From Thalassolituus oleivorans MIL-1 (lineage in GTDB: Bacteria > Pseudomonadota > Gammaproteobacteria > Pseudomonadales > Oceanobacteraceae), in the NCBI RefSeq assembly GCF_000355675.1, contig NC_020888.1, positions 655,001-719,000 on the forward strand: 64,000 bases of DNA. Reading direction: 5' to 3'. The translations under genes were made by a program, and so were the position numbers. Below the pieces are notes generated by a model. That model saw only the letters and a list, made by a program, of their open reading frames with translations. It had not been told where the DNA came from and ran no database searches. Below, piece after piece: positions 36,767 through 54,907 of this stretch. Each line of letters starts with the position of its first letter. Position 1 is the stretch's first letter.

Positions 36767-37771
36767 CTAGCGTGGTTCTTGCGCGCAAATCAATTTGAAA
36801 CCCTTCTCTTGTACCATGACTTCTACATGGTCAAAGGCTTCTTGCGCCCATTCTTCGTAACCTAAGTGACGATTAGCGATTAGCCATAACTGTCCGTCTT
36901 TGACGAGGTGTTGCTTCGCTTGTTTGAAAAGGTTCTGCGCGAATTGGTAATCGGTATTCTTACCTTGGTGAAACGGCGGATTGGTAATAATGAAGTCAAA
37001 TCGCCCATCTATGGAGGTCAAACCATCGCTGTGTAGGATTTCAACCGGTAACGCTAAGCGCATACTGTTGAGTTGAGCACTGCGCAGAGCAAATGCATCA
37101 ACATCCGTTAGTACCACCTCTAATGACGGGCTGCGCTTTTTGAGGCTAAGGCCAATGACGCCAGAGCCACAACCTAAGTCGAGTAGCCGACCGTGTGCAG
37201 GCGCGGGAAGGTGTTCTAACAAGACGGATGTGCCGCTATCTAAACTGCCATGACTGAACACTCCAGGCAGGGTAAGGTAGTCGGCGGCATCCCATTTAAA
37301 TGAGCGTCCCATCGCTAGCCAGTTAAACTTTGTAACAGGTGTTAGGTCTATAGACCATAGTGAGCAATGGCGCGCGCTATCCAATTTTGTGGTTGAGCTA
37401 CTGAATTCTTTGCAGGCACTGCCAATGCTTTTACCACCGGCGTCATTAGCGGCAACAACATAGCAACGCTTTGCGGTAGTGGCGATGAGCTGAATAAGCG
37501 CTTGAGCAAAAGGTTTGGCTTTAGGCCAAAGCAAAATTACGGTGCGATCTTGCAGTTGATCTGTAGTCGGTAAACCAAATGTGATCAATTTATTGTCGAT
37601 ATGACCTTGATAAGCTTGAGCCGTTAGCCAGTCCCACGTGTTGATCTGTAACTCGTTTTTTTTTACTACTGATAGCCACTCACCGCTGAAGTCTTTTGCT
37701 GAACCCAATACGGTGGTCTTGGGGGTTAGTAAGTCAATATGGCGGAGCAGCAGATCGTATACGGCACTCAT
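36767..37771 (-). CDS. rsmC: 16S rRNA (guanine1207-N2)-methyltransferase
   Basis: 334 residues. Two-domain RsmC architecture: a catalytically inactive N-terminal methyltransferase-like half and a C-terminal Rossmann domain with LLDLGCGSGVIGLSL (SAM site) and the amino-methylase motif ITNPPFHQG. PGVFSHGSLDSGTSVLLEHL is the RsmC linker. It methylates G1207 of 16S rRNA in the 30S subunit. RlmG is the closest alternative, but the linker favours RsmC. It overlaps the upstream MerR-type gene by four bases (37768-37771), so the two are translationally coupled. Confidence 0.93.
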   Translation of the reverse strand: MSAVYDLLLRHIDLLTPKTTVLGSAKDFSGEWLSVVKKNELQINTWDWLTAQAYQGHIDNKLITFGLPTTDQLQDRTVILLWPKAKPFAQALIQLIATTAKRCYVVAANDAGGKSIGSACKEFSSSTTKLDSARHCSLWSIDLTPVTKFNWLAMGRSFKWDAADYLTLPGVFSHGSLDSGTSVLLEHLPAPAHGRLLDLGCGSGVIGLSLKKRSPSLEVVLTDVDAFALRSAQLNSMRLALPVEILHSDGLTSIDGRFDFIITNPPFHQGKNTDYQFAQNLFKQAKQHLVKDGQLWLIANRHLGYEEWAQEAFDHVEVMVQEKGFKLICAQEPR

Positions 37772-38685
37772 TCAGGTAAGCCTAATAACATGTCTCGAAC
37801 ATTGATGGCATCTTGTTGTAGATCGCCGTTGAGGGTAACGAGCCCTTTTTGTCGTAAAGTTGTTTGTTCATCTGCTTGTTGGCCGATGACAAAAATAGCG
37901 GCACCGGATTCAAGGACCATGCGCTGTAATTGTTGCTTTTGTGCATCACTGGCGTGTTTAGGGATGCGCAATACAGCCCCTTGCCACTGTTGGTGTCTTA
38001 GTAACTCGGTAATATCATCCGTGGCGGTCAATCCAGCTAAGCGCACAATGCGTAATCCGAGTTGTTTCAGCAATATTGCTAACAACAACATATCTAGGTC
38101 GTCATCTTGAGTGGTATTAGCAACTACAAGCGTACCTTTATATTCAAGGTTACTTTCTTCACCTAAGCGCCCAGCGAGTCTACCTTGGAGAAAACCGCCG
38201 TAAAACTGCATGCGGGCTTGCCCCAAAGGCTGGGTAACTTGATCGCGCAAATGTTGATACATAGGGATCAATAAGAAGCGCAAGGCGATATCTATAGGAA
38301 AAAACTGACTCACTTCATCGGCAACGGTGCTCAGTTGCGCAGCATCAAATTGTTGTACGCCTTTGGCCAAAGACGCACGATACTGATGCCATTGCGACGG
38401 CTGTGGTTGGCTTATCAATATGGTTTCTGGTTCCGGATCGCCGCTATCTATCATGGCTTTAGCCTGTGATACCGGGACTCCGCGCTCTAATAGAGACACA
38501 ACCTTACGAATAAGCTGAATATCGGATTCTGTATAGAGTCTATGCCCTTTGGCCGTGCGTTTGGGCGTAATTAACCCGTAACGTCGTTCCCATGCGCGAA
38601 GAGTAATGGCATTAACACCGGTCTCGTTCGAGACGACCCGTATAGGATAGTAAGCCGCTTGCGGCTCGGATGTTGGGGATGACAT
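37768..38685 (-). CDS. MerR-family regulator, class II LitR-like
   Basis: 305 residues. An N-terminal MerR helix-turn-helix (residues about 14-80; NAITLRAWERRYGLITPKR and GHRLYTESDIQLIRKVV) is followed by a cobalamin-domain-like C-terminus. The B12-ligating D/E-x-H-x-x-G motif of CarH/LitR is absent; at the equivalent place the sequence reads TTQDDDLDMLLLAILL. In Pseudomonas putida such B12-less class II LitR proteins work with short LOV photoreceptors, and here a short LOV gene lies divergently next door. A light-responsive repressor or activator is therefore likely. It overlaps rsmC by four bases, so light could also affect rsmC expression; that last point is speculation. Confidence 0.85.
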   Translation of the reverse strand: MSSPTSEPQAAYYPIRVVSNETGVNAITLRAWERRYGLITPKRTAKGHRLYTESDIQLIRKVVSLLERGVPVSQAKAMIDSGDPEPETILISQPQPSQWHQYRASLAKGVQQFDAAQLSTVADEVSQFFPIDIALRFLLIPMYQHLRDQVTQPLGQARMQFYGGFLQGRLAGRLGEESNLEYKGTLVVANTTQDDDLDMLLLAILLKQLGLRIVRLAGLTATDDITELLRHQQWQGAVLRIPKHASDAQKQQLQRMVLESGAAIFVIGQQADEQTTLRQKGLVTLNGDLQQDAINVRDMLLGLPE

Positions 38686-38906: not shown

Positions 38907-39374
38907 ATGGTCATCGACCACAATGATGAGCAAGGGCCAATCAGTTTAGAGCTGTTGAAAAAAGCGGTAGATGCCTCGAACGACGGAATTGTCATTGCGG
39001 AACAAGAAGGTGACGACAATATTCTGATCTACGCTAATAAGGCTTTTGAGCGTCTGACTGGCTATCATGTTGACGAGATTTTGTATCAAGATTGCCGCTT
39101 TTTACAGACAGGGGATCGAGATCAAACGGGCTTAGATACGATTCGCGAAGCGATTAAGCAAGGCAGCAGCGCTCGGGTTGTATTACGTAACTACCATAAA
39201 GATGGTTCGATGTTTTGGAATGAGCTGAGTATATCGCCAATTTATAGCGATGAAGATCAGTTGACCTATTACATCGGCATCCAAAAAGATGTCACCGCGC
39301 AGGTGGAAGCTGAAGCGCGCGCTAAAGCGGCGGAGCAAGAACTGGCCGAGCTTAGAGCTAAGCTAGCTCAGTAG
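38907..39374 (+). CDS. Short LOV-domain blue-light photoreceptor
   Basis: 155 residues with GGAG eight bases before the ATG. A single PAS/LOV core spans about residues 20-130. The photoactive Cys63 lies in ILYQDCRFLQTGDRDQ, with the flavin-contacting RFLQ. NYHKDGSMFWNELSISP and YYIGIQKDVT complete the LOV fold. A C-terminal amphipathic helix (about 130-155) is the only effector, as in PpSB1-LOV of Pseudomonas putida, which this protein closely resembles. It should bind FMN and form a Cys adduct in blue light. The divergent MerR/LitR-like gene is the likely signalling partner. The gene ends at a strong terminator. Confidence 0.95.
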   Translation: MVIDHNDEQGPISLELLKKAVDASNDGIVIAEQEGDDNILIYANKAFERLTGYHVDEILYQDCRFLQTGDRDQTGLDTIREAIKQGSSARVVLRNYHKDGSMFWNELSISPIYSDEDQLTYYIGIQKDVTAQVEAEARAKAAEQELAELRAKLAQ

Positions 39375-39444: not shown

Positions 39445-39972
39445 TTAGCCTTTATAGGCTGCAGCTGATTCAGTGATCATGCGACGAGCTTCGTCAGCAT
39501 TACCCCAGCCGCTTACTTTTACCCACTTGCCTTTCTCTAAATCTTTGTAATTTTCGAAGAAGTGAGAGATTTGCGCGCGCAATAGCTCAGGAACATCGTC
39601 GATATCTTTTACATCGTTGTATAACTGAGTCAATTTTTCGTGCGGAACGGCTAATAACTTAGCGTCGCCACCGGCTTCGTCTTCCATATTTAGAACGCCA
39701 ACAGGGCGTGCACGAATGACTGAGCCCGGTTGAACTGGGTATGGAGTGATAACTAATACATCGAGTGCATCGCCGTCATCAGCCAAAGTGTTAGAGATAT
39801 AACCGTAGTTCGCTGGATAGAACATCGGGGTTGCCATGAAACGGTCAACCATCAGGGCGTCCATATCTTTGTCGATTTCGTATTTGATCGGAGAGTGGTT
39901 TGCAGGGATTTCAATCACGACGTAGATATCGTTAGGCAAGTCTTTGCCAGCTGGAATCGAGTTGTAGCTCAT
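39445..39972 (-). CDS. ppa: Inorganic pyrophosphatase
   Basis: 175 residues from the ATG at 39972, which has GGAA six bases upstream; the ATG at 39984 has no ribosome site and adds four residues not usual in the family. Family I soluble PPase motifs: [33 protein letters not shown] and the metal-binding [11 protein letters not shown]. It hydrolyses pyrophosphate to drive biosynthesis. Single gene, divergent from the first TonB receptor gene with a gap of 169 bases. Confidence 0.97.
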
Positions 39973-40141
39973 AACAGTTTCCATAGGTAGGTTGAATGTC
40001 TGGCGGAATTATAGCCGCAAGCCGCTATAGATGTCAGTTCGACGAGAGAATATGGCATAATTCGTGACCGAAACGGGTGGCAGGATGCATTGCAGGAGGC
40101 CTTCGTTGTTGTAGAGTCAGGGAAAGCGGGAGCTGTAGTAG

Positions 40142-42454
40142 ATGTTTTTAAGTCGAACGCTACATTCGATTGTATTGTTTATCGTTTTTTTTATGGAATG
40201 CACTGGTGTCTATGCCAGTGAGTACGATCTATCCGAATTTGATTTGCCATTGCTAGAAGCAGACATCCCTGTTGTTCTTTCGGCTGCCCGTTTGAAACAG
40301 CCTCGCGCCGAAGTTCCCGCTAGTGTTACCGTCATTGATGCTGAACAAATTGCTGCTTGGGGCGTGCGTACCCTTCCTGAGTTATTACGTTTTGTTCCCG
40401 GTGTTTTTGTTACTCAAGATAAGTTTGAACATAACGATGTCGTAGCTTATCACGGTTCAACCGCTTATATGAGCCGGCGTCTACAAGTCTTGGTTGATGG
40501 TATGTCGGTTTATAAAGGCGGTATCGCTATGGTGGTTTGGGATGACATTCCCATCGCGCTTGAGGATATCCAACGAATCGAGTTTGTTCGGGGTCCAAGT
40601 TCAGCCATGTATGGTGCGAATGCCTTCCTTGGGGTGGTCAGTATTACATCGAAGAAACCAGCGGATACCGAAGGTGTGCGCATTAGCTATCGTGGGGGGA
40701 CTCAAAATGTACGTGATGCTATGGGGAGTGTTTCTACGATACATGGCAAGAGCTCGTCGCGTATAACCGTACAACAGACCAGCGACGATGGTTTTGATGG
40801 ATTACAAACTGAGTCGTCTGACAAGCTCGAGGACAGCCGAAGACATGGTTTCGCTACCGGGTATTACGAGCAAGATTTAGATAGCGGCATTCAGTTATCT
40901 TTCCAAGGTGGCTATAAATATGGCTATACCGATGTGCGGAAAGGACTTCTTTGGCAAGAACCGCGGAGTAACTTTGTTAAAGCCTATTATGGATCTGCAC
41001 AGGCGGACTTCAATTTTTCAAGTTCACATCAAGCATACCTGCGTGCGTATTGGCAATTCGAAAAACGCACTCAGGAAGGCATAGCGTGTATTCCTACCGT
41101 GGCACTTGATAGTGATTTATACGCTGAGTGGGAGGTGAATCCGCAATGGGCGAAGTTTTTAGGGATAGGTCTGCCGACGGCAGTCAGTTCGGCTGACCCT
41201 GCTACTGCCTATGCTTCCAATCAGTTATTACAGCAATTGGCTTTCGGCAGCTCAACGCCAAATGAATTAGCGGCGATTATTGAGCAGGCCACAGGCGAAC
41301 GATATACCTTATCGCAAGAAGATGTCGATCTTGCCCAAACGGTAGTACTTAGAGCCTACGACGGAACTGGCTTTAGTCAATTTTCGCAACCGTTTTGTGA
41401 TGATGCAAATTTAAGTTACGACGGCCAGCGTTCGGATGTTGAATGGCAAGACACCGTTCAATGGACGGATACATTGCGCAGTGTAACTGGAATCAATATT
41501 CGGCAAGAAAATATTAATTCACAAACGTATTTCGACGGTAAGGTAACTAGTTATTTGTATCGAGCTTTTGGCAATTTAGAATGGCATGCAGCAGAGTCAA
41601 TTATCATTAATGTCGCAGGTACTTACGAATACGAAAGTATTAATTCTCCTGAGTTCTCTCCTCACATTGCTCTAAATTATCTTTTTTCGCCACGTCAAAG
41701 TGTTCGATTGGTGTATTCGACAGCGATTAGATCGCCTGATGTTTATGAACAAAAACCTAACTATTCTTTTGATGTGAACAATTTACCTGATAATTATTTA
41801 GGCGTGCAGGAAGCAACCTATTTTATTCATCAGGTTTATGATAATCGCCGTGTTGAAAGTGAGAAAATCACTAGCTATGAGGTTGGTTATTATCACAATA
41901 TTTCTAGCATTGGCCTAGAAATGGATATCAAACTTTATCGAGATGAATTAACGCAATTAATATCCCAGTATGTTGGAGTTGCTGCACCATCGTTATCAAA
42001 TGACACCGAAATGAGTATCGAAGGTGTTGATTGGCAGTTCCAGTGGGAGCTTAGCGGAAAGAACTGGCTAAGGTTTGTTGGCGCTTATTTAGATACGGAT
42101 GTTCGCCCCGGCTCTACGTATTTATTTAGCCAAATTGAAATAGAAGAATTTCAAACTGCTGAGACACGTCTAAGTGCGCAGTATAGCGGCAATATTAGTT
42201 GGCATCACAAAGGGGAAGGTTGGAATTCGACGTTGTCGTATTTTTGGAATTCTGCCTATGACGCTAGCGAAGCTGATCCAAACGATTACCGTCGTTACGA
42301 AGTGAACCTGCAGAAATCATGGCGATATAGAAAGCTTACATCTAGCGTTACCTTGTTTTGGCACCACTTAGTGGATGACGGCGAATTATTAGAAGCCGAT
42401 CAAGTGTATTCCACCAATGATCTTTACTCCATTCGCATTGGAGTTGATTTTTAA
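40142..42454 (+). CDS. TonB-dependent receptor, copy 1 of a duplicated cassette
   Basis: 770 residues. A signal peptide (cleavage near VYAS) is followed by a possible TonB box around DIPVVLSA and a plug domain with VPASVTVIDAEQIAAWGVRT, LQVLVDGMSVY and VRGPSSAMYGANAFLGVVSI. A 22-stranded barrel follows, ending SIRIGVDF. A helical insertion of 102 residues between Cys codons 41087 and 41396 is unusual. It imports or senses an unknown ligand across the outer membrane. A very similar receptor occurs at 43613, and each receptor is followed by a binding-protein-like gene, here after 40 bases. Confidence 0.92.
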   Translation: MFLSRTLHSIVLFIVFFMECTGVYASEYDLSEFDLPLLEADIPVVLSAARLKQPRAEVPASVTVIDAEQIAAWGVRTLPELLRFVPGVFVTQDKFEHNDVVAYHGSTAYMSRRLQVLVDGMSVYKGGIAMVVWDDIPIALEDIQRIEFVRGPSSAMYGANAFLGVVSITSKKPADTEGVRISYRGGTQNVRDAMGSVSTIHGKSSSRITVQQTSDDGFDGLQTESSDKLEDSRRHGFATGYYEQDLDSGIQLSFQGGYKYGYTDVRKGLLWQEPRSNFVKAYYGSAQADFNFSSSHQAYLRAYWQFEKRTQEGIACIPTVALDSDLYAEWEVNPQWAKFLGIGLPTAVSSADPATAYASNQLLQQLAFGSSTPNELAAIIEQATGERYTLSQEDVDLAQTVVLRAYDGTGFSQFSQPFCDDANLSYDGQRSDVEWQDTVQWTDTLRSVTGINIRQENINSQTYFDGKVTSYLYRAFGNLEWHAAESIIINVAGTYEYESINSPEFSPHIALNYLFSPRQSVRLVYSTAIRSPDVYEQKPNYSFDVNNLPDNYLGVQEATYFIHQVYDNRRVESEKITSYEVGYYHNISSIGLEMDIKLYRDELTQLISQYVGVAAPSLSNDTEMSIEGVDWQFQWELSGKNWLRFVGAYLDTDVRPGSTYLFSQIEIEEFQTAETRLSAQYSGNISWHHKGEGWNSTLSYFWNSAYDASEADPNDYRRYEVNLQKSWRYRKLTSSVTLFWHHLVDDGELLEADQVYSTNDLYSIRIGVDF

Positions 42455-42494
42455 TGCGAATCTCGTCTAATTTTTTCAGCAATAGAGACATTTC

Positions 42495-43346
42495 GTGAAG
42501 TGTTTCTTGATTGGTATTTTGCTGATTTATTCTTCTTCATTATGGGCAGAAAAAGTCGCTATTGTGGTGCAGAAAGTAATTCCGGCAGTGAATGTGCTAG
42601 CGCAAAAAGTAGCTAATGAAACCGGTTTTACCGCTACCGTAGTTTTGGCCGAACAGTTTGAGCATTCTGTTTATGATTGCGTCGTATTGGTGGGTGATGG
42701 GCCGCTAGAGACATGGAATTTGGCGAACGATGTTCCAGTAGTTAGTATTCTTAGTGGTAGAGTGGCCGTTGAAAATGCCTCCTTTTTAAGCAGTGCGATC
42801 TTCGTTGAACCTCCATTGAGACGGCAAGTTGCTTTGGCGCGCTTAATTTTAGGTGAAGCGGAAAACTTAGGTATTCTTATTTTAAAAAATGATTCTAAGC
42901 GTCTTTCTCTGGAAGTTAGTAAGCTCCCTAAATCTTCAAAAATTAAGCTGTATAATATTGACGAGTATGACTCATTCAATAGAGCGTTGATCGACTTGCT
43001 TGCGGATAGTCGGGTATTGATCGGTCAGTATGATTTAAATATCTATAGTGCTAAAAATATTGAAAACATATTAATTACTGCCTATAGACATAATGTTCCT
43101 TTGATAGGCCCATCGAACGCCTATATTAATGCGGGCGCTTTAGCGTCAACTTATAGTGATCTAACGGATGTTGCTCGGCGTTTGAGTGAAATTTTACTAA
43201 AAGGGCTAGGTCATAATGATTGGGCTAAACCAGACTATAATTCGTATTTCTCTGTTAGCTATAATCATCAGGTGGCCCGTTCTCTTAATTTAAATTTACC
43301 CGATGTAGATACCGTTGTGGCTAGCATTAAAAAAACTGAACAGTAA
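42495..43346 (+). CDS. Periplasmic ABC-type binding-protein-like, copy 1
   Basis: 283 residues from a GTG start. A Sec signal peptide ends near LWAEK. The fold matches the uncharacterised ABC substrate-binding family (ABC_sub_bind, PF04392-like): NVPLIGPSNAYINAGALAST and the closing VSYNHQVARSLNLNLP correspond to the conserved C-terminal NxxxAxxLxxxLP. No ABC permease or ATPase gene is near, so it is more likely a ligand-binding sensor component than part of an importer. It pairs with TonB receptor copy 1; a paralogue follows receptor copy 2. Confidence 0.75.
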   Translation: MKCFLIGILLIYSSSLWAEKVAIVVQKVIPAVNVLAQKVANETGFTATVVLAEQFEHSVYDCVVLVGDGPLETWNLANDVPVVSILSGRVAVENASFLSSAIFVEPPLRRQVALARLILGEAENLGILILKNDSKRLSLEVSKLPKSSKIKLYNIDEYDSFNRALIDLLADSRVLIGQYDLNIYSAKNIENILITAYRHNVPLIGPSNAYINAGALASTYSDLTDVARRLSEILLKGLGHNDWAKPDYNSYFSVSYNHQVARSLNLNLPDVDTVVASIKKTEQ

Positions 43347-43612
43347 TTATAGAATTTTTGATTGGGCGGTTGTTCCTGTTCGCAGAAGGACTGGCATTTA
43401 GCGTAGATGAATAGGAATCCCTTATTGATCTCTGTATCATTGTCACCACGCGTATTCTTGTGGCGATGGATAGTTTGAGTGAATGAAGAATGACTTTAGA
43501 TCACCTGCTATGCTAATAGTTATTAGTGGTTTGATTAAGTCGTAAATAGTATCCCCCGTGCCGGCGATGGAGTGTGGTGCACTAACAAAGATCACCAAAG
43601 TAGCAGGTACAC

Positions 43613-45949
43613 ATGCTTTTGAAGAACAAGATATTTTCCGGTCTTATTTTAGCCTCGCTAGCCATCAGTGCCGATGCGTTGGCCGATGATATGGCTGCCT
43701 TTGATCCTTTAACCGATGGCGACTTCGGCGGCTTGGCTCTGCAAGATGATATTCCTGTTGCACTCACTGCTGCGCGTTTAAAGCAGCCTCGAGCTGAAGT
43801 GCCAGCCAGTATCACGGTGATTGAAGCGAAACAAATCGAGGCTTGGGGAGTGAGAACTATCCCGGAGCTTATGCGTTTTGTGCCCGGGATGTTTGTTGGT
43901 CATGGTGATGATCAAAACAATCGCGCGGTAGCTTATCACGCGTCAAGCCCCAACATTATGCGTCGTATGCAAGTGCTTGTGGATGGTCGTTCAGTATTTA
44001 AAGCGGCTATCGCTCAAATTATTTGGGACGATATTCCAGTTGCTATGGAAGATATTCAACGTGTAGAAGTGGTGCGCGGACCTAACGCAGCCAGTTATGG
44101 CGCGAATGCGTTTCTTGGGGTGATTAACATAGTGACTAAACACGCGGCTGACACTCAAGGAACGACTTTGCGCTTTCGCAAAGGTAATCAGGGGGTCGAG
44201 GATAGCTTATTCAGTCATTCTGATAGGGTCAGTGATGATGCCTATCGCTTAACACTGCAGCAAAATTCGGACAATGGTTTTGACGGCCGCGATGCAACCA
44301 ATGGCGAAGATGATTGGCACGATTCTCGCCGTCATGGCTTTGCCAGCCTCTATTATGATCATGACATCAGTGAAAGTACTCAATTGAATTGGGAAGCAGC
44401 GTACAAGTACGGCAACACAGATATTCGTAAAAGTGATTTTGATACGGACTATCCTGATCAAATCACGCGTCAAGGATTTGTGATGGGTAAGTTAATTCAC
44501 GAATTTAACCAGGATCACTTTTCTCATTTGCAGGCATATTGGCAAACCGATCACCGCACTCAAGAGACGTCTAGTTGCGGTTCGACCACATCATTCGATC
44601 CTGTTTTGTTGGACGAGTATCGTACGAACCCTGAATGGACGCAATTTGTTGCGCTGGGGGTGCCAAGTATCTATGCCGATAGCAACACGACTCCGCAGAC
44701 GTTGGCGGCGGCTAATTATTTGGTTGGCGGTATAGCCACCAACTCGCTTACGCCTGAACAAGTGGAGCAATTGATTGAGGAGAACCTAGGAAAAACCTAC
44801 ACCCTACAGCAAAGTGACTTAGATGCTGCTGCTGTCGCCTTCGGTAATGCCTACAATGGCAGTGACTTCTCGCAACTAGGACAATTGGCATGTGGTGCTG
44901 GTAATTTTAATGTGCGCGAAGATCGCTATGACATCGAGTGGCAGGATACCATGCAGTGGACGCCCGCATTGCGTACGGTTTCTGGCATTAGTTATCGTCG
45001 CGACAGCGCCGATTCAATGACCTACTTTAAGGGTGCTGTGCACAACGATACCTATCGTATGTTCGCCAATGGTGAATGGCAGGCATTTTCTCATTTGGTT
45101 TTTAATATTGGCGGTATGTATGAACAGGAAGATTCGAATGATAGCGCCTTTTCTCCGCGGGTTGCGGCTAATCTACTGTTAACTCAACAACAGAGTTTGC
45201 GTCTGGTTTATTCGCAAGCTGTGCGCTCGCCAGACTTGCTAGAGAAGAAGCCAAATTACGCCGTTACTTTGTATGATTTGACCGACAATTATCTAAATTT
45301 AGATGATGGTGTTTTCTTTATGAATCAAGTGCCGGATACGCGAGAGCTTGATCATGAAAAGATTACCAGTGTTGAGCTTGGTTATTACGGTAAGTTGCCG
45401 GAATTAAATTTAGAGCTAGACGTTAAGGTGTATAAAGACCGTCTTAGCCAGTTGATATCCAATACTATTGCGCTTAACTCTGTGTATATCGCGTCGGATA
45501 CTAAGATGGATGTTAAAGGGGTTGATTGGCAATTAAATTGGCAATTCAGTCGAAATAACTGGTTGTGGTGGTCTGGAGCGTATGTGGATGCTGCTGTCCG
45601 CCTAGGTGATACCAGCCCATTAGACGCTAAGGAAATTGATCGCCTCGCGAAAGTTGAACGGCGCTTAAGCGCGGAGTGGAGCAATAACGTTAGTTGGCAT
45701 CATGATGGCAATAATTGGGGCTCGACTCTGACTTATTTCTGGCATGATGGTTACAACGATTTAGAGAATAAGGGGGTTGATTTTCGCCGGTTTGAAGCCA
45801 ATTTGACCAAAACTTGGGATATGAATGGCTATAAACCAGAAGTAGGCTTGTTTTGGCATCATTTAGTTGATGATTCTCGGCTTGTTTACCCAGATCAGGT
45901 CTATGCTGTTAATGATATCTACTCCTTTCGGGCCGGAATTACTTTTTGA
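43613..45949 (+). CDS. TonB-dependent receptor, copy 2 of a duplicated cassette
   Basis: 778 residues. Signal peptide ends near DALADD. The plug begins with DIPVALTAARLKQPRAEVPA, near-identical to copy 1, and contains VLVDGRSVFK and VRGPNAASYGANAFLGVINI; the barrel ends SFRAGITF. A 104-residue helical insertion lies between Cys codons 44576 and 44891, parallel to copy 1. Its 3' end overlaps the frame of the next binding-protein gene. The 266-base gap before it shows no clear riboswitch or terminator; it may hold its own promoter. Confidence 0.93.
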   Translation: MLLKNKIFSGLILASLAISADALADDMAAFDPLTDGDFGGLALQDDIPVALTAARLKQPRAEVPASITVIEAKQIEAWGVRTIPELMRFVPGMFVGHGDDQNNRAVAYHASSPNIMRRMQVLVDGRSVFKAAIAQIIWDDIPVAMEDIQRVEVVRGPNAASYGANAFLGVINIVTKHAADTQGTTLRFRKGNQGVEDSLFSHSDRVSDDAYRLTLQQNSDNGFDGRDATNGEDDWHDSRRHGFASLYYDHDISESTQLNWEAAYKYGNTDIRKSDFDTDYPDQITRQGFVMGKLIHEFNQDHFSHLQAYWQTDHRTQETSSCGSTTSFDPVLLDEYRTNPEWTQFVALGVPSIYADSNTTPQTLAAANYLVGGIATNSLTPEQVEQLIEENLGKTYTLQQSDLDAAAVAFGNAYNGSDFSQLGQLACGAGNFNVREDRYDIEWQDTMQWTPALRTVSGISYRRDSADSMTYFKGAVHNDTYRMFANGEWQAFSHLVFNIGGMYEQEDSNDSAFSPRVAANLLLTQQQSLRLVYSQAVRSPDLLEKKPNYAVTLYDLTDNYLNLDDGVFFMNQVPDTRELDHEKITSVELGYYGKLPELNLELDVKVYKDRLSQLISNTIALNSVYIASDTKMDVKGVDWQLNWQFSRNNWLWWSGAYVDAAVRLGDTSPLDAKEIDRLAKVERRLSAEWSNNVSWHHDGNNWGSTLTYFWHDGYNDLENKGVDFRRFEANLTKTWDMNGYKPEVGLFWHHLVDDSRLVYPDQVYAVNDIYSFRAGITF

Positions 45950-45954
45950 CATGG

Positions 45955-46869
45955 ATGATGTGCATGGATGCTCTGAAACCGTTCTGGCATCGTAAGGCGA
46001 TTCTTGTTCTGTGGTGTTCGTTGCTATTTAGCGCAGCGAGCATTGCCGATATTGCTTTGGTCGTGCGCGAACGCCAGCCTATGGCCGAGCAGTTGGCAAA
46101 AACCATTGCTCAGGGCCTGAAGATCCCCTCCCAGTTATTAACGCTAGGCGATAAACAAGTCGATTGGTCTAGCTTTGATGCGATTGTATTGCTAGGTGAA
46201 CCTGTTCTTGAAGCATGGCAAACGCCTACGGATAGCCCTGTGGTCGCAGTGTTCGTTAGCCGCGAGAGTGCGCAGCGGCGTTCTGCACTATTAAAGTCTG
46301 CCATCTATGTGGAGCCGCCTTTATCTCGTCAAATTACGCTCAGCAAAATTCTGCTAGGTTTTGATGTACGTCTCGGTGTCTTAGTTTCAGATGCCTTTGC
46401 AGCAAGCGCGGCAGATGAAGTCGCTAAGGTGCAGCGCGAAGAGTTTGTTAATATTTATCCACTTTCGGATCTCAATAACTTAAATCGTACATTGATTGAA
46501 TTACTTGCTGACAATCAAGCTTTGGTGGGGGTGTACGATAGCGAGTTATACAGTCCTGGCAATATCAAAAATATTTTAATAACAGCCTATCGACAGAATC
46601 GACCCTTAATCGGACCTTCAAGTGCTTATATAAAAGCAGGATCGCTAGCATCTACTTACAGCGACTTAGATGATGTTAGCAAACGCTTAATTGAAATTTT
46701 ATCTGCAGGTTTAAATAACAAACAATGGGCTAAACAGGACTACAATCCATATTTTCAAGTGCGCTACAACGAGCAGGTCGGGCGGTCGTTAAATTTATCT
46801 TTGCCGAATGTTAATGATGCAGTTAAGGCATTGATGAAAGCGGAGGAGAATCGTCATGAACTTCCGTGA
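45955..46869 (+). CDS. Periplasmic ABC-type binding-protein-like, copy 2
   Basis: 304 residues from the ATG at 45955; ATGs at 45958 and 45964 are equally possible, and an in-frame TTG at 45946 overlaps the receptor stop. A signal peptide ends near SIADIA. Motifs parallel copy 1: SAIYVEPPLSRQITLSKILL, RPLIGPSSAYIKAGSLAST and VRYNEQVGRSLNLSLP. The copies share the positions of the ligand-lobe motifs, so they may bind related ligands. The 3' end overlaps the histidine kinase start by 14 bases, giving translational coupling and tying this sensor protein to the kinase. Confidence 0.75.
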   Translation: MMCMDALKPFWHRKAILVLWCSLLFSAASIADIALVVRERQPMAEQLAKTIAQGLKIPSQLLTLGDKQVDWSSFDAIVLLGEPVLEAWQTPTDSPVVAVFVSRESAQRRSALLKSAIYVEPPLSRQITLSKILLGFDVRLGVLVSDAFAASAADEVAKVQREEFVNIYPLSDLNNLNRTLIELLADNQALVGVYDSELYSPGNIKNILITAYRQNRPLIGPSSAYIKAGSLASTYSDLDDVSKRLIEILSAGLNNKQWAKQDYNPYFQVRYNEQVGRSLNLSLPNVNDAVKALMKAEENRHELP

Positions 46870-48751
46870 TTGGTCGATTCGTCGTCGAATTATGCTACTC
46901 AGCACTTTGCCAGTGCTGTTGACGGTTGCCTTACTCACCGCTTTGCACATGATGGAGCGCTGGTCTGACGTGCATCGTGAGAACGAGAGCATCGCACGTT
47001 TAATGATTGAGAATATCGGGGCATCGGCAGAATACCCACTGATTTCAGGTAATTATGAATTATTAATGCCACTTATTGATGCGGCGTTGGCTCAGCCTGC
47101 AATAGTGACGGTACGAATTAGTAATGCCAATGGCGAGCTAGTGATTGATCGCCACTCTGATTCCTATGTAGGGTTGAGCTTATCGGAAGTGCGCTTACTG
47201 CATAGTGATATTAATCGCGAAATTGTCTCTCTGAGCGAATTTTCTAGTTTTAATGAGGATGATCGTACCATTCAAGAACTCGGTTATATCGAGTTGGGTA
47301 TGACAGATCGTTTTGGCCGCGATCGAGAACTTTCTATTTTACGGCAGTCGTTACTGACTGGTTTAGCGGTGGTTATTTTAGCAGCGCTTATTGGTCGTTA
47401 CATGGGGATGACGATTGTGCGGCCACTGGAATCTTTATCCAGTTTTATTCGCCAATTAGCTCGCGGAGAAAACTGGCGCAGAATTGATGTAAACGACGGT
47501 GCAGAAATAGGTAACTTGCAAGATGATGGTAATCGACTGGCGTTAACCTTAGAAAAAGCGGAAGCAGAGCATGAACGCTTTACTAGTCAATTGCTGCAAG
47601 AACAGCAGAAAACGCGGGAAGCCAGTCAGGCTAAAAGTCAGTTTTTATCCATGATGAGCCATGAACTGCGGACACCATTAAATGGCGCGGTTGGTATGCT
47701 ACAACTTATGGATCAGAGTAGTTCGGAAACGGAATTTAATGATCAAAAAAGGCATGCTGATACGTCACTGGCGCACTTAACTCAGTTGCTCGATGATGTC
47801 ATGGTCGTTGTCGACACTGATAGTAGTCAGTTGCCGGTGGTTTATGCATATTGCGATATCGCTAAAGTCATGGAGCCACTGTTTGCCGATTTAAGAATCA
47901 AGGCAAGTCGTAAGGGCTTATCTTTAATCGTTGATATTGATCCTGTTTTTTTGCAGACGGAGATTTATTTACCGAAGTCTTTGGTTCGGCAATTATTACG
48001 ACATTTATCGGATAATGCCCTAAAGTTCACCGAGCAAGGTGTTGTCGTTATTGAGTTGCAATATCTGCGCGATGACGGCGAAGAGCTTCGAATTGTTGTA
48101 CGGGATTCGGGGATTGGTATTCCAGCCGATCAGCAAAGCCAAGTGCTCGAAGCTTTTTCCCAAGTAAGCTCTTCCTTTAATCGTCGTTACGATGGCCTAG
48201 GATTGGGTTTGACGATTTGTCATCATATTAGCCAAATATTAGCTGGGCATATCGCGTTTGAAGACAACCCCGGTGGCGGTACCTGCGTCTCTGTTACTAT
48301 TCCCTTACTATCACCAAAGAGTAATGAAAAATCTTCGGCTAAGGCAGCGTCAACATCAGTAGCCCGCGGCAAAATCCTGATTGTCGAGGACAACGAAGTC
48401 AATTTAAAAGTGGCTGAAAAGATGTTGAACAAAGTCGCTCCCGATATCCAAATCAGTTCGGTTGGTTCTGGCGAAGACTGCATAAGTTTAATTCAGCATC
48501 AGGGACGGCATTTTGATCTTATTCTGCTGGACTGCCAAATGCCGGGAATGGATGGTTTTGAGACCAGCGAGCAGCTAAGAAAATATGGGTTTCCAGGGGC
48601 GATTATCGCTTGTACGGCAAATACCACGGATAAAATAGAGCAGCGGTGCATTGATGCTGGTATGGATGACTATATGGCGAAGCCAATTCGCCTAGACAAT
48701 ATTAGAGATATGTTAAATCGATGGTTGAAACAAACAGAAACGGCAGATTAG
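46856..48751 (+). CDS. Hybrid sensor histidine kinase
   Basis: 631 residues with GGAGGAGA upstream. TM1 lies at about 12-32, a periplasmic sensor region at about 33-162 (CHASE8/BarA-like), TM2 at about 165-187, and HAMP at about 188-240. HisKA carries His269 in SMMSHELRTPLNGAVG. HATPase boxes are N-box LSDNALKF, G1 RDSGIGIP and G2 DGLGLGLTIC. The receiver domain has Asp559 in LILLDCQMPGMDGFE. It would autophosphorylate at His269 and pass the phosphate to its own receiver; no HPt domain or output regulator is encoded here. The overlap with the binding-protein gene suggests it reads the periplasmic ligand-bound state. The terminator stem overlaps its last codons. Confidence 0.93.
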   Translation: MNFRDWSIRRRIMLLSTLPVLLTVALLTALHMMERWSDVHRENESIARLMIENIGASAEYPLISGNYELLMPLIDAALAQPAIVTVRISNANGELVIDRHSDSYVGLSLSEVRLLHSDINREIVSLSEFSSFNEDDRTIQELGYIELGMTDRFGRDRELSILRQSLLTGLAVVILAALIGRYMGMTIVRPLESLSSFIRQLARGENWRRIDVNDGAEIGNLQDDGNRLALTLEKAEAEHERFTSQLLQEQQKTREASQAKSQFLSMMSHELRTPLNGAVGMLQLMDQSSSETEFNDQKRHADTSLAHLTQLLDDVMVVVDTDSSQLPVVYAYCDIAKVMEPLFADLRIKASRKGLSLIVDIDPVFLQTEIYLPKSLVRQLLRHLSDNALKFTEQGVVVIELQYLRDDGEELRIVVRDSGIGIPADQQSQVLEAFSQVSSSFNRRYDGLGLGLTICHHISQILAGHIAFEDNPGGGTCVSVTIPLLSPKSNEKSSAKAASTSVARGKILIVEDNEVNLKVAEKMLNKVAPDIQISSVGSGEDCISLIQHQGRHFDLILLDCQMPGMDGFETSEQLRKYGFPGAIIACTANTTDKIEQRCIDAGMDDYMAKPIRLDNIRDMLNRWLKQTETAD

Positions 48752-48769
48752 TATCTGCCGTTTCTGTTT
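48732..48769. terminator. 17-bp perfect stem overlapping kinase stop codon
   Basis: aaacagaaacggcagat (48732-48748) and its complement (48753-48769) flank loop tagt, which contains part of the TAG stop. It lies between the convergent kinase and fbp genes. The 3' T run is short. Confidence 0.75.
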
Positions 48770-48785
48770 AATTAACGCGAATGCA

Positions 48786-49760
48786 TTAGTTTTTTACGTG
48801 ATAACTGATCGCTGTTTCTACTTCTTGAGATGAACCCATAACAACGGATACACGTTGATGAATACCTTCGGGTTTAACCGTCATAATGTTTTCGAAAGCG
48901 GTGGAGGCCATACCGCCTGCTTGCTCTACTAGCATACTCATTGGATTGCCTTCATACATTAAACGCAGCTTACCTGGCTTGCCAGGATCGCGGCTATCGT
49001 ATGGGTACATAAAAATACCACCGCGGGTCAGAATGCGGTGAATTTCTGCAACCATAGATGCAATCCAACGCATGTTATAGCGTTTACCCAAGGGACCTTC
49101 TTCGCCTTGCAATAAATCAGAAACGTATTGTTGCATTTCAGGCAGCCAGAAACGTTGGTTTGACATATTGATGGCAAATTCTTGAGTCGTTTCAGATATA
49201 CGAATATTTTGGCGCTCTAATACGAATTCGCCGATGCGCGGGTCCAGTGTAAAGGAAAAGACGCCATCACCCGTTGTCAGTACGAGTAAAGTTGATGGTC
49301 CGTAGAGTACGTACCCGGCAGCAACTTGCTGTTTACCTGATTGCAAATACGCAGCTTCGGTAGCAGCGTCGGAATCCGCGGCGGCCTTCAATATCGAAAA
49401 AATAGTACCGACGGTGACGTTTACATCGATGTTGGAGGAGCCGTCTAATGGATCGAACAAGACCAAATATTCACCGCTGGCATTACATGCTACTGGTAAT
49501 TCTTCTTCTTCGCTGGCCAAGCCTTTGACGCTAGGAATGGCAGCAAGACAATCCTTGATTAAGTCGTTAGAGATAACATCTAATTTCTTTTGGCATTCCC
49601 CTTGGACATTCTCTTGTTCGGCACTGCCAAGTACGCCAGCAAGTGAACCAAGGTGTAGACGATAGGCAATGTCTTTGCACGCAACCATAAGTCCATCAAT
49701 GATCTCTACCACAGCGGTATTGTCGCAATGGCCATCCAAAAACGTCCGTAAGCGTTGCAT
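48786..49760 (-). CDS. fbp: Fructose-1,6-bisphosphatase class I
   Basis: 324 residues from the ATG at 49760, with GAGGA upstream; an in-frame codon at 49784 adds nine residues lacking support. FBPase motifs include the metal site DPLDGSSNIDVNVTVGTIFS and the substrate region KPGKLRLMYEGNPMSMLVEQ. Cytoplasmic gluconeogenic enzyme hydrolysing fructose 1,6-bisphosphate. It is divergent from mpl with 259 bases between them in which no gene was seen, and convergent with the kinase gene. Confidence 0.96.
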   Translation of the reverse strand: MQRLRTFLDGHCDNTAVVEIIDGLMVACKDIAYRLHLGSLAGVLGSAEQENVQGECQKKLDVISNDLIKDCLAAIPSVKGLASEEEELPVACNASGEYLVLFDPLDGSSNIDVNVTVGTIFSILKAAADSDAATEAAYLQSGKQQVAAGYVLYGPSTLLVLTTGDGVFSFTLDPRIGEFVLERQNIRISETTQEFAINMSNQRFWLPEMQQYVSDLLQGEEGPLGKRYNMRWIASMVAEIHRILTRGGIFMYPYDSRDPGKPGKLRLMYEGNPMSMLVEQAGGMASTAFENIMTVKPEGIHQRVSVVMGSSQEVETAISYHVKN

Positions 49761-52070: not shown

Positions 52071-52425
52071 ACAACAAAATACCCCTGAAGCAGAAGAACA
52101 AGATATCGCCAAATGGTGCATCTTAAGTTTTATGGGCGGTATTATCGTCGCAGCTTTAGCGTTGGAATATTACGGCTTTATTCAACATCCTAAAGATGCT
52201 GATACAGCTTTAATTTCTGAGTTTAAATTATTATCGCTAAGCCCAGAACACGAAGTTAAGGTATCACCAAAAATGTCGGGTAAAGAAGCCTTTTGTGTCG
52301 ATGGCTATATTTTGCTGCGCCCTACCAATGGTAATGCAGTGGCTGGTATTTTAGTTGACGAAAAAAATCGCGGTGTGCAATGTCAGCACAGTTTGACCCC
52401 AACGGTCGGTGAACCTTCAGAATAA
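52063..52425 (+). CDS. Small single-pass membrane protein, unknown
   Basis: 120 residues. One transmembrane helix at about residues 18-37 (WCILSFMGGIIVAALALEYYG) is followed by a roughly 80-residue hydrophilic part with two cysteines (AFCVDGYILLRP and GVQCQHSL) that could form a disulfide if periplasmic. No family recognised. The start overlaps ubiX by eight bases, so it is translated with the mpl-ubiX unit, and the TSP3-repeat gene begins 10 bases after its stop. Confidence 0.7.
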   Translation: MTEQQNTPEAEEQDIAKWCILSFMGGIIVAALALEYYGFIQHPKDADTALISEFKLLSLSPEHEVKVSPKMSGKEAFCVDGYILLRPTNGNAVAGILVDEKNRGVQCQHSLTPTVGEPSE

Positions 52426-52435
52426 TAAGAGCCTT

Positions 52436-54907
52436 ATGCGCAGCTACTATTCCACATTATTACTTTCGTTATCACTGGTTAGCTCACTCAGTTTTGCTGC
52501 GCTAAATGATATAGATGGCGATGGAATTCCAGATCATCTCGATACTGATCGTGATGGCGATGGCCTGTCTAATTTTATGGAGCAGACGGGCGGTACCGAC
52601 CCCGATGTTCCAGATCAATTTGATACCGACGAGGATGGTATTCCCGATGCCATCGACGACGATATTGATAACGATGGCGTGCCCAATCAACGAGATTCAT
52701 TTCCGCTAGATGGCAGCGAATACCGAGACACGGATGGCGACGGTGTAGGCGACAATGCCGATCTTGATCGTGATGGCGATGGCGTGCGCAATGATTTAGA
52801 AGAAAAGCTGGGCTATAACCCCAACGATATTCGCTCTCGTCCGAAAGATAGCGATGGTGATGGCTGGCCGGATTTGCTCGACGACGATATGGATAACGAC
52901 GGCTATAAAAATAATGAGGATGCCTTTCCTCTTAATGCCGCCGAACATGCCGATATGGATCACGATGGTATTGGCGATAATTCCGATCCGGATAAAGACG
53001 GCGATGGCATCAGTAATAAATTAGAAGTGCTGGCTAACACCGATCCCGATGATCAGTTTTCCGTGCCGCGCGATGCCGACCGTGATGGCGTCCCTGATAT
53101 GCTTGATGACGATCGTGATGGCGATGGCGTCAGCAATGCCAAAGATCTTTACCCAGACAATTCAGCAGCTTGGGCTGATACCGATGGTGATGGTATTCCG
53201 GACAACGAAGATGCGGATGCAGATAACGACGGCATTGCCAACGTATTGGAAATGCATCTTGGCACGAATGCCTTGGATGCTAGCAGTCGCCCTGCGGATA
53301 CCGATGGTGACGGTATGCCGGATTATTTTGATTCTGACGTTGATGGTGATGGTACCGAAAATAATCTCGATGCTTTCCCCAAAGATGCAACTGAATGGCT
53401 AGATACCGATGGCGACGGTATTGGCGATAATTTAGATACAGATAGAGACAATGACGGTTTCAGCAAAGAAATCGAAGCGCTGGCGAATAGTGATGATCTC
53501 GATGCCAGCAGCAAGCCCGCGGATCTCGATGGCGACGGCTTAGCTGACGTTGTTGATCCCGATATCGACGATGACGGTGTATTAAACGACGACGATGCCT
53601 TCCCTTATGATCCTAGCGAATCTCTCGATTTTGACGGTGACGGCATTGGTGATAACAGCGATCAAGATTTAGATAACGACGGCATTAATAACGAGTTTGA
53701 ACGCTCACTCAGTTACGATCCGTACGATGCTAATAGTAAGCCTGAGGATATGGATGGCGACGGAATTCCGGATGCGCTTGATAGTGATATGGACGGTGAC
53801 ACACTGTCAAACGTAATGGATATGTTCCCGCGTGACCCGACCGAATGGTTCGATACGGATCTTGATGGCATCGGTGACAATACCGATCCAGATCGTGACG
53901 GTGATGGTATTAGTAATGCCTATGAGTTGCGTGCCGGTACAGACCCATCCGATCCTAACTCAGTGCCACCCGATATGGATGGTGATCGTATTCCGGACGT
54001 CGTAGATGATGATATCGACGGAGATACTCACCTGAACGGAGCGGATGCTTTCCCAATGGATGCCAGTGAATGGCATGATATGGACGGTGATGGCATTGGT
54101 GATAACAGTGATCTCGATATCGATGGCGATTTAATTTCGAACGAGTATGAGCTTCGATTGGGTTATCGGCATTTGGACAGTACCCATGTACCACCAGACT
54201 TAGATGGTGATCGTATTCCGGATGAACTGGATGATGATATTGATGGTGATAGTTATCTGAATACTCTTGACCGCTTCCCTCGTGATCGCACTGAGTGGGC
54301 TGATACCGATAACGATGGTATCGGTGACAACACAGACGGCGATATTGATGGTGACGGTATTATCAACACCTACGAAGTACGGTTGAATACTGATCCTTAT
54401 GACGCTGGAAGCCGTCCTCGTGACCAAGATGGTGACGGTTTACCTGATGCTATTGATGATGATCGCGACGGCGACGGCGTAACCAATGGTAGTGATTTAT
54501 TCCCAGATAATCGCTTGGAGTGGGCCGATCTAGATGGTGATGGAATTGGGGATAACAGCGATTCTGATTTAGATGGTGACAGCTATTCGAATAACGAAGA
54601 ATTGGCAGAGGGCACCGATCCGCGGTCAGCATCGTCTTATCCAGATCATGAACCACCGGTGTTGGAGGATGCCCATTGGCTAGAGGGAGAGCCAACACTC
54701 ACGGGTATGTTGTATGACGACGGTTTAGGTATCAAACGTGTGTGGCTGCAAAGCCCAATGGGCGACGTTTGCGAAGGCTACGTATCCTATATAGGTCACT
54801 TCAACGTTACTTGTCCGATTAGAGCAAATAGCACTCGCTGGACTTTGCACGCTGAAGATCATGCCGGTAATCAGATTGAGCAAATATTCGATACTGACGG
54901 TCGCTAG
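52436..54907 (+). CDS. Thrombospondin type 3 repeat protein, calcium-binding, exported
   Basis: 823 residues from the ATG at 52436 (AAGAG upstream, signal peptide ending LSFA); an in-frame start at 52409 lies inside the preceding gene. Nearly the whole mature protein is made of DxDGDGIPD / DxDxDGDGxxN calcium-loop repeats, with nine copies of a spacer like AFPKDATEWLD, i.e. nine long TSP3-type units. A non-repeat C-terminal domain of about 90 residues has two Cys (VCEGY and VTCPIR). Such proteins are usually rigid Ca-filled stalks at the cell surface or secreted; adhesion is inferred, not shown. No anchor or OmpA domain is seen. Confidence 0.88.
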   Translation: MRSYYSTLLLSLSLVSSLSFAALNDIDGDGIPDHLDTDRDGDGLSNFMEQTGGTDPDVPDQFDTDEDGIPDAIDDDIDNDGVPNQRDSFPLDGSEYRDTDGDGVGDNADLDRDGDGVRNDLEEKLGYNPNDIRSRPKDSDGDGWPDLLDDDMDNDGYKNNEDAFPLNAAEHADMDHDGIGDNSDPDKDGDGISNKLEVLANTDPDDQFSVPRDADRDGVPDMLDDDRDGDGVSNAKDLYPDNSAAWADTDGDGIPDNEDADADNDGIANVLEMHLGTNALDASSRPADTDGDGMPDYFDSDVDGDGTENNLDAFPKDATEWLDTDGDGIGDNLDTDRDNDGFSKEIEALANSDDLDASSKPADLDGDGLADVVDPDIDDDGVLNDDDAFPYDPSESLDFDGDGIGDNSDQDLDNDGINNEFERSLSYDPYDANSKPEDMDGDGIPDALDSDMDGDTLSNVMDMFPRDPTEWFDTDLDGIGDNTDPDRDGDGISNAYELRAGTDPSDPNSVPPDMDGDRIPDVVDDDIDGDTHLNGADAFPMDASEWHDMDGDGIGDNSDLDIDGDLISNEYELRLGYRHLDSTHVPPDLDGDRIPDELDDDIDGDSYLNTLDRFPRDRTEWADTDNDGIGDNTDGDIDGDGIINTYEVRLNTDPYDAGSRPRDQDGDGLPDAIDDDRDGDGVTNGSDLFPDNRLEWADLDGDGIGDNSDSDLDGDSYSNNEELAEGTDPRSASSYPDHEPPVLEDAHWLEGEPTLTGMLYDDGLGIKRVWLQSPMGDVCEGYVSYIGHFNVTCPIRANSTRWTLHAEDHAGNQIEQIFDTDGR
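52508..54640 (+). repeat. Protein-level TSP3 calcium-loop repeats (about nine units)
   Basis: Nine units of about 75-80 residues, each with DxDGDG(I/L)(P/G)D, DxDxDGDG, a (A/S/L/M)FPxD spacer and a DTDGDGIGDN segment. DNA copies have diverged at synonymous positions, so this is an old repeat and not a recent tandem expansion. Confidence 0.85.

Follow-up and report, generated by a model that had tools for sequence, protein, structure and literature searches.

Periplasmic binding proteins that control a hybrid histidine kinase are known from LuxP-LuxQ and TorT-TorS, units that are not known to include a TonB-dependent receptor and whose kinases belong to other sensor families than the one discussed here. 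Outer-membrane receptors that signal to the cytoplasm are known from the FecA-type transducers, which carry an STN domain and work with an anti-sigma and a sigma factor. Here we analyze a locus of Thalassolituus oleivorans MIL-1 that resembles both types, located in a stretch of 64,000 nucleotides (contig NC_020888.1, positions 655,001 to 719,000 of the forward strand; hereafter the window, to which all positions refer unless stated otherwise). Between 40142 and 48751 on the + strand, it encodes head to tail a TonB-dependent receptor, a periplasmic substrate-binding protein (SBP), a second receptor, a second SBP and a hybrid histidine kinase. As in LuxP-LuxQ and TorT-TorS a periplasmic SBP stands beside a hybrid kinase, but the sensor is of the GacS/BarA type and the SBP of the PF04392 type; as in the FecA type a TonB receptor would be tied to cytoplasmic signaling, but no STN domain was reported in either receptor in a Pfam scan at E ≤ 1. 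The cassette of receptor, SBP and kinase is most likely a variant of the SBP-gated hybrid kinases in which a TonB receptor forms the front end, and its kinase is already known. We consider it fairly probable that the locus represents a conserved sensing relay of three genes, here in doubled form, in which PA1611-type kinases sit and a signal would pass from ligand to SBP, kinase and HptB.

According to excerpts of the papers cited here and below, PA1611 of Pseudomonas passes phosphate to HptB, which relays it to HsbR (PMC7467158, PMC5992135), and binds RetS, the LadS/PA1611/RetS switch being called unique to Pseudomonas (PMC4866733). PA1612-PA1611 form an operon that lies upstream of fabA, is co-transcribed with it and is called "seemingly unrelated" to fabAB, and deletion of PA1611 had no effect on fabA (PMC3462791); PA1613 is listed among iron-acquisition proteins (PMC9864456). 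The kinase of a Pseudomonas cassette (L039) matches 7c1j, the PA1611 receiver (PMC7467158), at 2.1e-60, and 7c1j is also, narrowly, the best receiver-only chain for the window kinase (69.9 bits; next 8pdc, 65.3 bits). At E ≤ 1e-50, all 25 genomes of the genus have a match to the PA1611 receiver, and the genome in which it is closest (G642, 96%) encodes a receptor of 702 aa, an SBP of 309 aa and a kinase of 651 aa, followed by fabA and fabB (both names above NCBIfam cut-offs). This is the same receptor-SBP-kinase order as in the window, with a single receptor-SBP pair where the window has two. The receptor, SBP and kinase of locus L232, with fabA and fabB next, are 33%, 33%, and 31% identical to those of the window. 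PA1611 shares the make-up and size class (651 aa) of the window kinase and is 31% identical to it over its length. By sequence kinship, the window kinase thus belongs with PA1611, a known kinase of the HptB/RetS network, and from gene order and kinship, rather than from the PAO1 sequence, we infer that PA1613-PA1612-PA1611 are a receptor, an SBP and a kinase. The original prediction had known of no described system with this layout. The kinase arm has been described, as PA1611; a link of receptor and SBP to the kinase was not found in excerpts of open-access papers among the matches listed, where PA1611 is treated without SBP, receptor or named signal, and the same matches held no description of the cassette as a unit. 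The cassette kinase is spread far wider than Pseudomonas.

The recurrence of the gene order was analyzed by profile searches. An SBP profile matched in 61 of 194 genomes of the order, and a larger one in 80 of 274 genomes sampled from the class and 45 of 200 sampled from the phylum, where the weakest matches include classical PF04392 proteins and one ABC-linked protein. Neighborhoods were collected for 141 SBP loci (5 of them counted twice): 59 from the order, 39 from named contigs, 40 from class and phylum, mostly among the strongest SBP matches, and 3 further ones from Pseudomonas. Besides the window's own genome, which was left out, 60 genomes of the order matched, and 59 of them contribute one locus each to the order set. 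Neighbor counts use all open reading frames (ORFs) scanned by profiles; non-overlapping ORFs were unsuitable, as real genes were missed in the high-GC genomes of L039, L114, L117, and L120 and the SBP itself in 8 loci.

Receptor and kinase genes both flank the SBP in 109 of the 141 loci (107 at another threshold): 46/59 in the order, 38/39 on named contigs, 22/40 in class and phylum and 3/3 in Pseudomonas. Because 15 of the order set's 18 family labels include the arrangement, the association is not due to chance. Writing T for receptor, S for SBP and K for kinase, the gene orders are TSK (91), TSSK (9), TTSK (3), SKT (3), and STK (1), besides SK (12), TS (12), S (9), and KS (1). Of 118 SBP-kinase gene pairs, 112 overlap or abut (median -4 nt), and receptor and SBP lie within 100 nt of each other in 110 of 115. 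Across 98 loci the three cassette families were found in 90–96, the next commonest neighbor family in 26; further neighbors look lineage-bound, and permease families are not among the recurrent neighbors. The three genes seem to move as one unit while their surroundings change, and they recur together in many Gram-negative bacteria.

Exceptions in the order set comprise eight loci with receptor only, four with kinase only (one at a contig end) and one with neither (at a contig end). Six of the receptor-only loci are from one genus, L076 is cut by the contig end, and in L063 the kinase lies beyond the receptor in a changed order. The named contigs have one exception, kinase only, at a contig end. 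In class and phylum there are five loci with kinase only, three with receptor only (in one, L211, a sensor-receiver gene scores under the threshold set for kinases), two with receptor and a GGDEF-EAL protein, three with a GGDEF-EAL protein without receptor and five with neither. Other genes may stand in the receptor's place: in L186 and L189 a response-regulator gene (receiver and LuxR-type helix-turn-helix) lies just upstream of SBP-kinase, and in L086 (8374-10395 of that locus, - strand) a gene with a Ser/Thr protein kinase domain. In L200 the receptor gene beside the SBP is in three pieces and apparently broken.

The output behind the sensor can be exchanged. In L182 and L184, receptor and SBP are followed by an sCache_4-HAMP-PAS-GGDEF-EAL protein in place of the kinase, with sensor regions that match the kinase-sensor profile at 9e-44 and 1e-44. 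L203–L205, where an SBP without receptor precedes GGDEF-EAL proteins, were set aside as support for exchange, the sensor match being weak (5e-8 to 2e-7) and perhaps due to HAMP alone (L204, L205). As the same sensor is joined to GGDEF-EAL in L182 and L184, the SBP would feed a sensor rather than an importer; one sensor with different outputs, judged from sequence, argues for a sensing unit and is not needed by the regulator of an importer. In addition, over 88 loci SBP distances correlate with those of the sensor at r 0.655 and with those of the kinase core of the same gene at 0.555 (bootstrap difference 0.028–0.162), and receptor distances at 0.774 and 0.648 (0.007–0.249).

TonB receptors usually import, and receptor and SBP could belong to an uptake system that works through an ABC permease encoded elsewhere, with the kinase only tuning expression. 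In line with this, the locus of a distant relative (L207) carries a PF02653 permease and an ABC ATPase, and the window's genome has six PF02653 matches; none of these is linked to the locus, and permease and ATPase genes are absent from the ORFs read around it. L207, the sole verified ABC-linked relative, scores 3e-14 on the SBP profile, far below most cassette SBPs, and no recurrent permease accompanies the cassette. A kinase that merely regulated the locus would hardly account for the GGDEF-EAL exchange behind the same sensor in two loci. We therefore regard an uptake system as unlikely. The signaling chain without transporter genes that had been proposed for the locus gains support from the conservation of the trio, from the output exchange and from the lack of any other widely recurrent neighbor.

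The SBPs had been called PF04392-like, a label that is borne out by fold and family-profile similarity and not by the Pfam gathering score, the two proteins scoring 15.0 and 11.7 bits against the 25.9 required. Since no protein of the window's genome matches PF04392 at E ≤ 1e-3, the label is a distant one. Within the SBP family 22 of 41 members match PF04392 at E ≤ 0.01 (best 3.8e-13), and the family profile matches the solved structures 3lkv (9.4e-18), 3lft, and 6hni. SBP2 alone gave weak matches only against the PDB (best E 0.21); its structural model (43-sequence alignment, mean pLDDT 93.4) has 3lft, 3lkv, and CD0873 as its best fold matches, with LuxP lower down. Cassette SBPs thus have TrpX-type proteins (3lft, 3lkv/VC_1101, CD0873) as best fold and profile matches, but SBP2 is 14–16% identical to them and no permease is linked. 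CD0873, VC_1101, and SP1069 hold tyrosine, phenylalanine, and tryptophan, respectively (PMC6816091). In the genus without a cassette kinase (L072, L078, L080, L081, L083, L087), the gene immediately upstream of the receptor encodes a prephenate dehydratase in all six loci. Solved relatives and this neighbor together give a hint of an aromatic amino acid as the SBP ligand.

Both receptors have Plug and TonB barrel domains above Pfam cut-offs. Their top NCBIfam match is the family of TOL_0244, the T. oleivorans alkane receptor, far below its cut-off (145.6 and 170.1 against 645 bits), the best stretch being about the first 330 residues. Alkane sensing by analogy with Alcanivorax OmpS (PMC6304351, excerpt) was dismissed, as this similarity lies below cut-off only, and a conserved cysteine pair in a receptor insert, present in 54 of 94, was rejected as a hallmark. 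The plug of a TonB importer and the two-lobed ligand-binding fold predicted for the SBP also bear on whether the receptor-SBP pair might sense the state of the envelope or outer membrane instead of an imported ligand, with the SBP as a structural cofactor of the kinase. That no ligand is known for the SBP of the window, nor, in excerpts of papers, for the related GacS sensor, would fit such a role, but the retention of plug and binding fold makes it quite improbable.

Pfam found HisKA, HATPase and receiver domains and reported no Hpt domain in the window kinase. Its N-terminal part is predicted as helix-strand-helix, which we take for a periplasmic domain (about residues 35-155) framed by two membrane helices. 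Against the NCBIfam BarA family it scores 252 of 890 bits over residues 5-491, below cut-off, and the sensor alone has no good match in the PDB (best E 0.32). Cassette kinases vary in their output, with a receiver and no Hpt (the window type), with receiver and Hpt, or as short forms without receiver (L115, L037).

The window's genome encodes side by side an Hpt protein of 111 aa, a receiver-SpoIIE phosphatase-HATPase protein and an STAS protein, by domain content an HptB-HsbR-HsbA-like set. No NCBIfam name reached its cut-off for the Hpt and SpoIIE-phosphatase proteins. The sole solved match of the Hpt protein at E ≤ 0.001 is 7c1i (1.4e-17), HptB from the HptB/PA1611 paper (PMC7467158). Because the kinase has no Hpt domain, its phosphate would be handed to the separate HptB-like protein, our best candidate for the acceptor here and not a rule. 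The genome also has a kinase with Hpt in a 950-aa frame, the second-best sensor match and GacS/BarA-like by size and sensor, and ten 7TMR-DISM matches, none assigned as RetS; given these, coupling of the RetS/GacS type may occur. One of the ten (genome 712863-713465) lies under a 603-aa ORF of the window (57197-59008, - strand). In the genomes of the kinase-less genus, the best sensor match is a kinase of GacS/BarA size, and there the receptor-SBP pair might act on the GacS/BarA-type kinase itself.

The five ORFs of the window locus stand where the original prediction had placed them (Table 1). Its joined frames in the second copy hold for SBP2 and kinase, with an overlap of 14 nt. Between receptor 2 and SBP2 there is either an overlap of 4 nt or a spacing of 5 nt, according to which SBP2 start is used; ATG at 45955 or 45964 is likelier than TTG at 45946. 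Weak Pfam matches of window proteins to YscO, TFIIB, MCM8, and SH3_ISE2 were dismissed as noise.

Table 1. Features of the receptor-SBP-kinase locus in the window.
Feature	Position	Strand	Description
TonB-dependent outer-membrane receptor, copy 1	40142..42454	+	770 aa; Plug and barrel; no STN reported
Periplasmic SBP, copy 1	42495..43346	+	283 aa; distant PF04392 relative; signal peptide by eye
Gap between the two pairs	43347..43612	+	266 nt; putative separate promoter for copy 2 possible
TonB-dependent receptor, copy 2	43613..45949	+	778 aa; slower-evolving copy; adjoins SBP2 and kinase
Periplasmic SBP, copy 2	45946..46869	+	307 aa from TTG, 301 aa from ATG at 45964; predicted two-lobed SBP fold
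Hybrid histidine kinase	46856..48751	+	631 aa; sensor, HAMP, HisKA, HATPase, receiver; no Hpt

Alignment confirmed that the two pairs are near-parallel, with 347 of 736 positions identical between the receptors (47%) and 124 of 284 between the SBPs (44%). With this gap between the pairs, transcription of all five genes as a single unit need not be assumed. The RNA fold of the gap is not unusual (z 0.15), and in 39900-48850 neither promoter-like sites (13, against 18.7 in shuffled sequences) nor terminator-like sites (5, against 7.6) are commoner than expected.

While the three-gene order is not unique to this genome, the doubled order TSTSK was found in 0 of the 141 other loci, and within the sample the doubled pair is confined to the window's lineage. 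The receptor tree places the two window copies together (support 91/85), inside a group (98/98) with relatives whose loci have two SBPs but a single receptor. In conflict with this, the SBP tree groups SBP2 with the SBPs on the kinase side in those relatives (91/86) and leaves SBP1 just outside (83/89). The close relatives L094, L095, L101, and L105–L107, with one receptor, two SBPs and one kinase, represent a different doubling. The proposal of two inputs on one kinase is a fair and plausible reading, for an order seen only here. The first pair might instead be decaying or differently employed, leaving the second pair and the kinase as the working unit. Its longer branches (receptor 1.04 against 0.41; SBP 1.01 against 0.77), the gap and the fact that SBP2 alone adjoins the kinase speak for such decay, but both copies are intact at 44–47% identity, and the sister-group relatives keep two SBPs before one kinase; we hold it to be rather unlikely, though less so than an uptake system.

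In the relay that we favor, a TonB receptor would carry a scarce ligand across the outer membrane, where the periplasmic SBP would bind it and dock on the GacS/BarA-type (sCache_4-like) periplasmic domain of the kinase, as LuxP does on LuxQ, altering kinase activity. The kinase would move phosphate from His to Asp within itself and pass it to the HptB-like protein, which would act on an HsbR/HsbA-like partner switch; in Pseudomonas this switch has a bearing on whether cells are motile or attached. Through the second receptor-SBP pair, the kinase probably responds to another ligand or affinity range as well. The analysis itself supports the genes, their order and conservation, the sensor homology, the output exchange, the kinship to PA1611 and the HptB/HsbR/HsbA-like genes, whereas import, SBP docking, phosphotransfer to HptB and the two inputs are what we infer.

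Several points weigh against this relay. Contact, ligand and phosphotransfer are not shown by the analysis, and distance correlations like those above can reflect like evolutionary rates in envelope proteins. The six loci of one genus have receptor and SBP without an adjoining kinase gene, and nine loci outside the named-contig set (one at a contig end) have SBP and kinase without an adjoining receptor. For the window kinase, Pfam gave no sCache_4 match even at E ≤ 1, so that its label as GacS/BarA-type (sCache_4-like) rests on homologues: sCache_4 is above cut-off in 6 of 10 cassette kinases scanned, and for the window kinase the full-length alignment to the L232 kinase and the sensor-profile match agree. 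Finally, HsbR (E ≤ 1e-100) is missing in 14 of the 34 order genomes (the window's own is counted among the 34) in which the cassette kinase has the length of an Hpt-less one, on which ground HptB was rejected as a universal acceptor; it is missing in 13 of 16 with an Hpt-sized one. Kinase classes were set by ORF length, Hpt being confirmed by Pfam in all four longer kinases scanned. By family label HsbR is present in 6/10 (Hpt-less) against 1/5 (Hpt-sized; Fisher p 0.28), with family f30 coded as HsbR-less from G029 (best 1.1e-75); G067, also of f30, has HsbR (1.6e-167) and a kinase cut by the contig end.

Elsewhere in the window, 38907-39374 (+) encodes a stand-alone PAS protein of 155 aa that, with its DCRFLQ stretch, resembles a short LOV blue-light sensor; a MerR-type regulator is encoded nearby (37768-38685, -). 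An 832-aa protein with many thrombospondin type 3 repeats is encoded at 52409-54907 (+).

More tentatively than the relay itself, we suggest that TonB receptor, SBP and GacS/BarA-type sensor with exchangeable outputs (kinase or GGDEF-EAL) may form a general module from outer membrane to cytoplasm, which would serve PA1611, and through it the HptB/Gac lifestyle network, as an unrecognized input arm, with two parallel inputs in T. oleivorans. PA1611 helps to set the lifestyle of Pseudomonas, and the cassette predicts two missing partners for it, with the cleft of the SBP as the place to look for its ligand. More broadly, going by the cassette, a sensor kinase may receive its signal from a TonB receptor by way of a periplasmic reader and without an importer, a two-membrane signaling route unlike that of the FecA type.

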